From Rhodobiaceae bacterium (GTDB taxonomy: Bacteria; Pseudomonadota; Alphaproteobacteria; RS24): a stretch of 64,000 nucleotides of DNA. The notes below the pieces were generated by a model. That model did no database searches. It was not told the origin of the DNA and saw only the letters and a program-made list of their open reading frames with translations. The DNA lies in the NCBI GenBank assembly GCA_018660505.1, contig JABJKE010000012.1, positions 28,571 to 92,570 of the forward strand, read 5' to 3'. A program made the position numbers and the translations under genes. Shown here in pieces: positions 20,027 to 23,071 of this stretch. Positions within the stretch are counted from its first letter, which is position 1. Each line of letters begins with the position of its first letter.

Positions 20027-20452
20027 ATGCGCGACGGTGGTAGGAATGATGAAAGGCAAGCGGCCATTGTCGCTAAGCTGAAGTCTGCGGGCTTGCGGAC
20101 CACGCGCCCGCGCGTGGCTTTGGCGCATTTGCTTTTTGGTCAAGGCGACCGCCATATTACCGCCGAGGCCCTGCACAGCGAAGCCCGCGCCGCCGGCCTG
20201 AGCATTAGCCAAGCCACGATTTACAACACGCTCAACCAATTTCACGAAGCGGGTATTTTGCGCGAAGTGCAAGTCGAGAAAGCGCGGAGTTATTTCGATA
20301 CGAATATTTCGGACCACCATCACTTCTATGTTGAAGGCGAAGGTCGCCTGATTGATATTGAGCAAAATGCCATCTCGGTCGATAAGCTGCCCAGCAGCCC
20401 AGAAGGGTTTCGCGTCACTGGCGTGGATGTTGTCATTCGGCTGACGAAATAA
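20027..20452 (+). CDS. irr: Fur-family iron response regulator Irr
   Basis: FUR winged helix (GLRTTRPRVALAHLLF, SISQATIYNTLNQF) and Irr-type SDHHHFY histidine cluster; divergent from fabA as is common in alphaproteobacteria. Confidence 0.85.
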   Translation: MRDGGRNDERQAAIVAKLKSAGLRTTRPRVALAHLLFGQGDRHITAEALHSEARAAGLSISQATIYNTLNQFHEAGILREVQVEKARSYFDTNISDHHHFYVEGEGRLIDIEQNAISVDKLPSSPEGFRVTGVDVVIRLTK

Positions 20453-20507
20453 AACCTTTCCGTCTCGTCTCGCCCCGTCCCACCTATCCAATTTAATCAC
20501 AATATTT

Positions 20508-20528
20508 ATTTTAGAATTATTCTAAAAT
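20508..20528. promoter_or_regulatory. ICE-like (Irr-binding) palindrome upstream of the rubrerythrin operon
   Basis: ATTTTAGAAT-T-ATTCTAAAAT: 10-bp perfect arms, contains TTAGAA-N3-TTCTAA; 2 bp upstream of TTGACA (20531-20536). Confidence 0.75.
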
Positions 20529-20634
20529 ACTTGACAGGATTTCTGCCGCTTCCTAGTCTGATGGTTAGGTAGACAGATCTATCTATCTGAAGGCGGGAAA
20601 ATGCTTCTCGTCACATGCAAAGAGGAGACGTTTC

Positions 20635-21051
20635 ATGTCGCTTGCTGAATCAAAAACCCTTGAGAATCTCAAGGCGGCGTTTGCTGGCGAGAGCCAAGCG
20701 AACCGTCGTTACCTTTACTTCGCGCAAAAAGCGGATGTCGAAGGCTATAATGATGTAGCCACGGTTTTCCGTTCCACGGCAGAAGGTGAAACTGGGCATG
20801 CCCATGGCCACCTAGAGTTCATGGAAGAAGTCGGGGATCCGGCTACTGGAGAGCCAATTGGCACAACTTCAGAAAACCTAAAAGCCGCTATCGTTGGAGA
20901 GACACACGAATACACAGATATGTATCCGGGTATGGCTCGCACCGCGCGCGAAGAAGGTTTTGATGAAATTGCCGACTGGTTTGAGACCCTCGCGAAGGCT
21001 GAAAAGTCGCACGCAGGTCGCTTCCAGAAAGCATTGGATACAATGGACTAA
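20635..21051 (+). CDS. Rubrerythrin-family diiron protein without a C-terminal rubredoxin domain
   Basis: Two ExxH-type diiron motifs ([51 protein letters not shown]); 138 aa with no CxxC pairs. Confidence 0.93.
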
Positions 21052-21120
21052 ACGCCATTCTGGGCCCGGCGACCGCCCAACGTCGCCGGGTCATTTTCTT
21101 TAATCGATGAGGCAAATAAA

Positions 21121-22467
21121 ATGAGAGAAGGCAGTTTAGACGCGCCAACCCGACATATATTGGATTGGCAATCTGACGCATTTTACGACAGGGCCGCGCT
21201 AGATGAAGAAGCGCGGCGTCAATTCGATATCTGTCATGGGTGTCGTCGCTGTTTCAATCTATGCGATAGTTTTCCGCGCCTTTTTGACCTTATCGATGAT
21301 AGCGAAAGCGGTGAATTGGATAGTGTAACCTCGGGTGATTTCGGCCCCGTGGTCGATGCCTGCACCCTGTGCGACATGTGCTATATGACCAAATGCCCCT
21401 ATGTGCCGCCGCATGAGTTCAACTTAGATTTCCCCCATTTGATGCTGCGCTATCGCGCCGTCGATTTTAAAGAAAAAGGCAAAGCGCCTTTCGTGCAAAG
21501 CCAATTGGCGCAAATGGACCGCAATGGCACCGCTTTGGCGCCCGTCGCCCCTCTCGCCAATTGGGCTTCAAAAAAAGGCAATGGCCTGACCCGCCCAGCC
21601 ATGCAGGCGGTGGTCGGCATTGATAAAAATGCCGAGCTGCCAAAATTCGCCGGTAAAACATTTCTCAAGCGCGCCCAAGAAGCGGTGAAAAGCGGCGCCT
21701 ATGAGGCCAATCCCAATGGGCCCGCGACGGGGCGCGAGGCAGTAATTTTCGCCACTTGTGCGGTCAATTATAACAATCCCGAAGTCGGCGAGGCCTCGGC
21801 TAAAGTTTTGGCGCATCTCGGCGTCAATGTGACGACGGAATATCCAGGCTGCTGCGGCATGCCCTATCTCGAGCAAGGCAATATTGCCAAAGTGGCCGAG
21901 CAGGCTGAAAAAGTGGCTGCCGCTTTGCGCCCTCTGGTCGATGCGGGCAAAGATATCATCACGCTGACGGCCTCTTGTGGTCTGATGTTCAAATTCGAAT
22001 GGCCGCTTTTGGTGCCCGACAATGAAGATGTGAAAGCCCTGTCGGCGGCGACCAAAGATATTTCAGAATATGTGGTGGATATTGCCAATAAAGAAGGCCT
22101 TCTCGAGGGCCTTCGCGGCACCCCCCAATCCATCTCTATGCATTTGGCGTGCCATGCGCGGGCGCAAAATGTGGGCCCAAAATCGGCCGAGCTTTTGCGG
22201 CTCATCCCGCAAGCCACGGTCTCCGTGGTCGAGCGGTGCTCGGGCCATGGCGGCACGTTTGGCGTGCTGAAGGAAACCCGAGATTTAGCCGTGAAAGTGG
22301 GCCGTCCGGCGGCGCGCGCTGCGGCCAAAGCCGAGCCCGATACGATTTGTTCCGACTGCCCTTTGGCGGCGAAACATTTGGTGCAATTGGTCGACGACAT
22401 TAGCGAAACAACACCGCCAGAGGCCAAACACCCCATCGAAGTGTTTGCTGCCGCCTATCAACTTTAA
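21121..22467 (+). CDS. GlpC/HdrD-like 4Fe-4S oxidoreductase associated with rubrerythrin
   Basis: CHGCRRCFNLC and CTLCDMCYMTKCPY clusters; CCG-like motifs YPGCCGMPY and HLACHARAQN...ERCSGHGG. Confidence 0.9.
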   Translation: MREGSLDAPTRHILDWQSDAFYDRAALDEEARRQFDICHGCRRCFNLCDSFPRLFDLIDDSESGELDSVTSGDFGPVVDACTLCDMCYMTKCPYVPPHEFNLDFPHLMLRYRAVDFKEKGKAPFVQSQLAQMDRNGTALAPVAPLANWASKKGNGLTRPAMQAVVGIDKNAELPKFAGKTFLKRAQEAVKSGAYEANPNGPATGREAVIFATCAVNYNNPEVGEASAKVLAHLGVNVTTEYPGCCGMPYLEQGNIAKVAEQAEKVAAALRPLVDAGKDIITLTASCGLMFKFEWPLLVPDNEDVKALSAATKDISEYVVDIANKEGLLEGLRGTPQSISMHLACHARAQNVGPKSAELLRLIPQATVSVVERCSGHGGTFGVLKETRDLAVKVGRPAARAAAKAEPDTICSDCPLAAKHLVQLVDDISETTPPEAKHPIEVFAAAYQL

Positions 22468-22477
22468 GGACTTATCC

Positions 22478-23071
22478 ATGACCGCTCCCAAAATCATTTC
22501 CAAATCCGATATTCTCTCGCTCGAAGATTATGTGGCCAATCGCGCGCATTTGCGGGCCGAGAGCCTAGCGTTGAAAAAGCCACGGCGGATTAATGTTGGC
22601 CCGCATGCGACGTTTTATTTCGAGAATTACGCAACCATGAAGCAGCAAATTCAGGAAATGCTCTACATCGAAAAAGGTGGCGACGCGCAACTCGAAGACG
22701 AGCTGGAAGCCTATAACCCGATGATTCCGCAAGGCGACGAACTTACCGCCACTTTAATGTTTGAAATTGATAATCCGGTGCAGCGTCTGCAAGTGCTATT
22801 GTCCCTGACCGATGTCGAACTGAGCGTCTATATAGAAGTCGATGGGGTGAAAACCTATGCCGAGCCCGAGCAGGAAGTGGAACGCACGACCTCCGATGGC
22901 AAAACCTCTTCGGTGCATTTTTTGCATTTCCGTTTCGCGCCAGAGCAAATCACTAGTTTTGCCAAGCCCGATACGCAGGTGATTTTGGGCATTGAACATG
23001 TCAATTATCCGCATATGACGGGTTTGTCGCAAGAGACCAAAATTTCTTTATCCGGTGATTTTGACGCTTAA
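22478..23071 (+). CDS. DUF3501 family protein
   Basis: Third gene of the rubrerythrin cassette; recognised as DUF3501-like from sequence and context; ATG at 22478 rather than ORF start 22445. Confidence 0.8.
   Translation: MTAPKIISKSDILSLEDYVANRAHLRAESLALKKPRRINVGPHATFYFENYATMKQQIQEMLYIEKGGDAQLEDELEAYNPMIPQGDELTATLMFEIDNPVQRLQVLLSLTDVELSVYIEVDGVKTYAEPEQEVERTTSDGKTSSVHFLHFRFAPEQITSFAKPDTQVILGIEHVNYPHMTGLSQETKISLSGDFDA

Follow-up and report, generated by a model that had tools for sequence, protein, structure and literature searches.

What does a rubrerythrin without a rubredoxin domain do behind the gene of a haem- and iron-responsive regulator, and which protein passes electrons to it? Both questions are raised by a locus in a 64,000-nucleotide stretch of DNA from a Rhodobiaceae bacterium (the window; source genome 1.77 Mb, 94% complete). 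Its plus strand carries, in order, irr (20027..20452; 141 aa, a Fur-family haem/iron response regulator assigned with NCBIfam profiles), rbr (20635..21051; 138 aa, PF02915, an aerobic-type, ferriperoxin/sulerythrin-like rubrerythrin, RBR), the gene of a GlpC/HdrD-like Fe-S protein (RFO; 21121..22467; 448 aa, PF02754) and a DUF3501 gene (22478..23071; 197 aa, PF12007, 6e-57). The flanking genes are on the minus strand, with fabB-fabA on the irr side and, after DUF3501, an SH3-domain gene and a gene that was labelled moeB/ThiF-type from its sequence.

The initial annotation had read irr, a palindrome, a TTGACA element and three co-directional genes as an Irr-linked rubrerythrin cassette, encoding an iron-regulated complex for peroxide detoxification or iron handling. 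All of these sequence elements are present in the DNA, and the part of the proposal that concerns an Irr-linked peroxide-defence operon is supported by the conservation of both the operator and the gene neighbourhood described below. We consider the best explanation, with a probability of roughly 60%, to be an Irr-controlled peroxide-scavenging operon in which RBR is the peroxidase and receives its electrons via RFO.

Operator, promoter and regulator

The irr-rbr intergenic region contains a perfect palindrome, TATTTTAGAATTATTCTAAAATA, that spans 23 bp (20507..20529, no strand); the initial annotation had rightly called it perfect and had given its length as 21 bp (20508-20528), which is corrected here. 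Its core, the 17-mer TTTAGAATTATTCTAAA (20510-20526), matches the iron control element (ICE, or Irr box) TTTAGAA-N3-TTCTAAA at 14 of 14 positions and is followed by ATAC, by the -35 element TTGACA (20531..20536, plus strand, 4 nt after the ICE) and, beyond a 17-nt spacer, by TAGTCT (20554..20559, plus strand), which from the sequence is a probable, weak (4/6) -10 element. An inverted repeat, AGGTAGACAGATCTATCTATCT, is found downstream of the predicted -10 element (20567-20588). The ICE of the rbr promoter (TTTAGAANNNTTCTAAA) is conserved in orthologues, which by sequence would place the operon in an Irr regulon. Irr, encoded just upstream, would bind the ICE adjoining the -35 element and gate rbr transcription by haem/iron status, possibly also by peroxide.

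The whole 1.77-Mb genome contains two 14/14 ICE sites and no 13/14 site. A Markov genome of equal size yielded no ICE above 12/14, so the two sites are not a product of chance. They have the stretch TTTTAGAATTATTCTAAAATACTTGAC in common. The second site is outside the window (contig C19:16828-16844), 61 nt upstream of a peroxiredoxin ORF (C19:16906-17427, plus strand, 173 aa, Redoxin/AhpC-TSA domains), and its promoter is laid out in the same way as the rbr promoter. That both perfect ICE promoters precede genes of peroxide scavengers suggests that Irr is able to regulate peroxide defence and not iron alone. Among peroxiredoxin genes of other lineages, ICE-like sites of at least 11/14 were detected in 18 of 74, where about 2 would be expected, and they often lie near the start codon. 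Palindromes resembling the ICE at 12-14/14 were seen close upstream of related peroxiredoxins in six metagenome loci (L222, L224, L240, L245, L254, and L257). Divergent from the peroxiredoxin gene on C19, 44 nt from the ICE, is a 128-codon globin-like ORF (C19:16401-16784, minus strand) that has no Pfam match and shows weak matches to haemoglobins and a flavohaemoglobin.

The promoter layout is widespread. Of 140 non-redundant loci, 106 have an ICE of at least 10/14 that ends 0-6 nt before TTGA[CT], 74 of them at exactly 3 nt; when the blocks before TTGAC were shuffled, about 2.4 of 140 loci did. CTA and CTG are the commonest sequences of the gap, and related promoters have -35/-10 spacers of 15-19 nt. 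At ICE pair 4/14, 19 sites differ on both sides, and in 18 of these the changes are complementary (p=1e-7, a value that ignores the kinship of the loci); such paired half-site changes are, as far as sequence can tell, as expected of a dimer operator. The ICE is retained at five loci where no adjacent irr was detected (L087, L121, L177, L178, and L197). It is absent, for example, at L198-L200, L202, L205, and L207-L209 (Acetobacteraceae, Rhodopila, Methylocapsa, and others), and about a quarter of the loci (34 of 140, these three groups included) lack an anchored ICE, so the link to Irr is lineage-specific. We also considered that the palindrome could be a terminator and rejected this, because it is AT-rich, its sequence and its position relative to TTGAC are conserved, and it is kept where no adjacent irr was detected.

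The regulator itself passes the NCBIfam cut-offs for both IrrA (197.5 bits, cut-off 150) and Irr (182.3 bits, cut-off 170) and has the HXH haem motif as HHH at residues 97-99. The Cys-Pro haem regulatory motif of the Bradyrhizobium japonicum type is absent, and the protein has no cysteine at all. Since the second haem site varies among Irr proteins (PMC7762939), its absence does not exclude the protein from this family; together with the HHH motif, it points to a likeness to the group of Irr proteins whose DNA affinity drops with haem, and the B. japonicum type would be the less suitable model. Scores against four NCBIfam PerR models are far under their cut-offs (67.8/250, 58.7/200, 42/180, and 28.7/200 bits). 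PerR/FurA genes adjoin katG or rbr in other bacteria, and the window shares with these arrangements a local Fur-family regulator next to a peroxidase gene and an AT-rich inverted repeat as operator. Irr senses haem, whereas PerR senses metal-catalysed oxidation, and describing Irr as acting much like PerR would be an analogy only. The identity of Irr falls to about 52-57% in more distant relatives, next to a highly conserved RBR. A weak ICE-like site (11/14) is present upstream of irr itself, in the fabA-irr intergenic region (19957-19973), and several relatives have sites of 11-12/14 there. This is possibly a candidate for autoregulation, at a score level that the genome reaches at 45 sites.

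Conservation of the cassette and exchange with katG

DUF3501 was detected in 194 of the 401 alphaproteobacterial genomes sampled. Wherever all three genes were found, they follow the order rbr-RFO-DUF3501 on one strand (155/155 loci), and the gene directly before them is irr, in the same orientation, in 127 of 156 loci. With a neighbourhood this strongly conserved, the concern in the initial annotation that other genomes might not share it no longer holds. We sought a fusion of RFO and DUF3501, as reported for Nitrosomonas, with which to model the interface, and found none in the loci examined. In one locus (L074, genome G053), the DUF3501 match is split in two pieces and the RFO match is only partial, which may reflect either decay of the cassette or a faulty assembly.

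Closer to the window, the cassette is absent from eleven other species of the same genus. Three of these genomes (G006, G007, and G011) and one of another genus (G014) have katG in the place of the cassette, with the ICE-TTGAC promoter kept; the retained promoter in front of the slot katG was read at loci L049-L052. In G001, G004, and G010, irr is directly followed by the SH3 gene and there is no ICE. Across 28 genomes of the family, the cassette (or its rbr) is present in 11, katG in 14, both in none and neither in 3. In a tree of fabA and fabB with outgroups, parsimony reconstructs the cassette as the original occupant of the slot and has katG arriving at least twice; the slot is empty in the three nearest relatives of the window species. 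A recent horizontal gain of the cassette by the window species is unsupported: compared with the nearer sister genera, RFO is 82-86% identical, similar to fabA/fabB (78-83%), and in the tree rbr is ancestral, with later losses or replacements.

Genome G001 also encodes a different katG (C20:5393-7944; 64% identity to the slot katG), which is adjacent to a co-oriented Fur-family gene. The arrangement suggests that this species, one of those that lost the rbr cassette, acquired a Fur/PerR-katG pair. No katG, catalase or rbr cassette was found in the congeners G004 and G010, the latter rated 100% complete.

On the scale of the class, we looked for mutual exclusion of katG and DUF3501 and did not find it, as 73 genomes have both and 69 would be expected. 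The exclusion holds only in genomes of up to about 2 Mb, where DUF3501 is present in 31, katG in 18 and both in none. The replacement of a whole cassette by katG at the same place suggests that the slot serves the removal of H2O2, and on the simplest interpretation the operon takes the functional place of KatG.

This exchange also bears on whether the cassette chiefly handles iron, as a ferroxidase or store with RFO giving electrons for iron release, a role that the initial annotation had left standing beside peroxide detoxification. Rubrerythrins are members of the ferritin superfamily, Irr is an iron regulator, and the authors of a Pelagibacter study named rbr a putative ferroxidase (PMC2864753). 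An Irr-regulated iron exporter, MbfA, is a membrane protein that includes a rubrerythrin-like domain (PMC3413700, PMC4902296). However, katG replaces the cassette at the same ICE-controlled position, which makes iron handling less likely than peroxide detoxification; the two genes alternate strictly in small genomes, the gene behind the second ICE is a peroxiredoxin, and peroxidase activity has been demonstrated for ferriperoxin (PMC3317640). We regard a primary role in iron handling as very unlikely.

The direction in which Irr would act is a closer matter. Haem-free Irr binds the ICE and represses or activates depending on where the ICE is located, and haem abolishes its action (PMC7762939). 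With the ICE beside the -35 element, Irr could either block RNA polymerase or contact it. In the peroxide-scavenging operon as we propose it, Irr would repress when haem is scarce, and relief would come when haem or iron rises or when peroxide inactivates Irr. The opposite polarity has a substantial chance of being correct, somewhat below even odds: apo-Irr would activate the same operon at haem/iron scarcity, and a non-haem peroxidase would replace haem enzymes that cannot then be made. The position of the ICE just upstream of the -35 element at a near-constant distance (3 nt in 74 of 106 loci) is typical of activators, direct activation is commoner for Irr than for Fur (PMC7762939), and a 1.57-fold increase of Pelagibacter rbr at iron limitation (PMC2864753) would fit if that rbr is under ICE control. 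Yet the katG of sister species encodes a haem enzyme and uses the same ICE promoter, which would be odd for a switch turned on by haem shortage. The strong and conserved TTGAC element, the ICE found immediately after, not before, TTGAC in two loci (L103 and L188), a place typical of repressors, and the location of several ICE-like sites of other-lineage peroxiredoxins near the start codon also speak against activation, and the greater H2O2 resistance of an irr mutant of Rhodobacter sphaeroides (PMC3413700) counts for repression. Repression is therefore slightly favoured, with activation nearly as likely.

Electron supply to the rubrerythrin

RBR has a PF02915 match alone and no rubredoxin domain, in agreement with the 138-aa protein of the initial annotation. 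It is highly conserved, with a mean column identity of 88% and 80-96% identity between the window protein and the other aligned orthologues, and its closest PDB chains are single-domain rubrerythrins of ~140 aa and sulerythrin. The missing rubredoxin domain and the co-directional genes for RFO (COG0247/PF02754) and DUF3501 (PF12007) identify the cassette as a member of the aerobic-type RBR/RFO/DUF3501 system, whose rubrerythrin would be a diiron peroxidase reducing H2O2. The proven peroxidase activity of ferriperoxin, a homologue without a rubredoxin domain, counts in favour of this role.

In the window genome (94% complete), we detected no KatG, catalase or OxyR and found no AhpC-type 1-cysPrx_C domain. 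Neither a rubredoxin nor a PF00175 flavoreductase was found there; an FNR of the thioredoxin-reductase fold falls outside the PF00175 search. In control genomes the family searches did recover their targets, with OxyR passing its cut-off in just one of them; at 94% completeness the absences are not proof. The donors named for rubrerythrin homologues are rubredoxin and FNR (PMC3317640). With rubredoxin and a PF00175 reductase undetected, RFO becomes the obvious candidate, as the initial annotation had anticipated for the Fe-S protein, and the separate rubredoxin that it had weighed against RFO is unlikely. The same absences, along with those of catalase, KatG and OxyR, make the question of the electron donor directly testable in this genome.

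RFO has eight invariant cysteines in two classical [4Fe-4S] motifs (including C81, C84, C87, and C92) and two reduced CCG domains with four (C213, C244, C245, and C286) and three (C344, C373, and C413) invariant cysteines, compared with the five of the HdrB-type CCG motif. Its predicted structure (pLDDT 89.8) has a fold that resembles those of LutA, EtfD, and HdrB, which are members of electron-transfer complexes. The protein is related to GlpC and remains under both NCBIfam cut-offs for it (192/278 and 105/280 bits), so we rejected an assignment as GlpC. Since RBR has no rubredoxin domain and the genome no detectable rubredoxin or PF00175 reductase, electrons would most likely reach RBR through the co-encoded RFO, by way of its two [4Fe-4S] clusters and degenerate CCG domains.

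Alternatively, RBR could be reduced by another donor, such as a ferredoxin or an FNR of a different fold, leaving RFO and DUF3501 to mature or repair the diiron site. Ferriperoxin of Hydrogenobacter thermophilus runs on FNR alone in vitro (PMC3317640), and in Thermoproteales RBR and DUF3501 are found with no RFO (PMC5114695), so RFO is not a universal donor. Against this stand the lack of a rubredoxin or PF00175 reductase among the proteins found in the window genome, the invariant cysteines for two full [4Fe-4S] clusters in RFO and the complete linkage of the genes in the sampled loci, and we consider a donor other than RFO unlikely.

For DUF3501, the predicted structure, a confident model (pLDDT 93.6), matched its own family alone in a fold search (PDB 3fjv, Burkholderia pseudomallei). 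The protein has no invariant cysteine, two near-invariant histidines (H174 and H179) and conserved Arg, Lys, and Glu residues. We infer a structural or docking role, most likely that of a non-redox partner that would assemble or dock RBR and RFO.

Relation to known systems

The three-gene cassette is already known. The aerobic-type RBR/RFO/DUF3501 system was defined by Cardenas, Quatrini and Holmes in 2016, who proposed that RFO makes up for the lost rubredoxin domain (PMC5114695), and RBR-RFO-DUF3501 has been reported as a mitochondrial system in Andalucia godoyi (PMC7050145). The window shares with the Cardenas system the same three proteins, a single-domain RBR, a GlpC-related Fe-S protein, DUF3501, and their physical linkage. 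It differs in its Irr/ICE control, which is not described in PMC5114695 ('Irr' does not occur there), and in the exchange with katG, which the accessible part of that paper does not describe. In the literature surveyed, we found no description of the Irr/ICE control, its widespread promoter layout, the katG exchange or the pairing with peroxiredoxin; an earlier prediction of an Irr box upstream of rbr is possible, and the Irr link can be called new only provisionally.

Ferriperoxin (Fpx) of H. thermophilus, an NADPH/FNR-dependent peroxidase needed for aerobic growth, is likewise a single-domain rubrerythrin that acts as a peroxidase in an aerobe (PMC3317640). Its electrons were shown to come from NADPH/FNR, and PMC5114695 places the RFO gene of H. 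thermophilus apart from the other two, in contrast to the arrangement in the window.

As a natural experiment, the substitution of katG for the cassette downstream of one and the same Irr box argues for a function in removing peroxide. For marine alphaproteobacteria with streamlined genomes in which neither OxyR nor catalase is detectable, we tentatively suggest a broader picture, in which Irr might be the peroxide regulator of an exchangeable rubrerythrin-or-KatG slot and of a peroxiredoxin via ICE-TTGAC promoters, and RFO might be a third type of donor beside rubredoxin and FNR.

The Irr/ICE regulon of rhizobia and Rhodobacter (mbfA, bfr, ccpA) has the same operator sequence and regulator family as the window, and the transcription start of R. 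sphaeroides ccpA, ~40 nt downstream of the box, is consistent with the geometry seen here (PMC3413700, PMC7762939). While known Irr targets include iron storage and export, haem synthesis, and cytochrome c peroxidase, the two perfect boxes of the window genome belong to a rubrerythrin and a peroxiredoxin.
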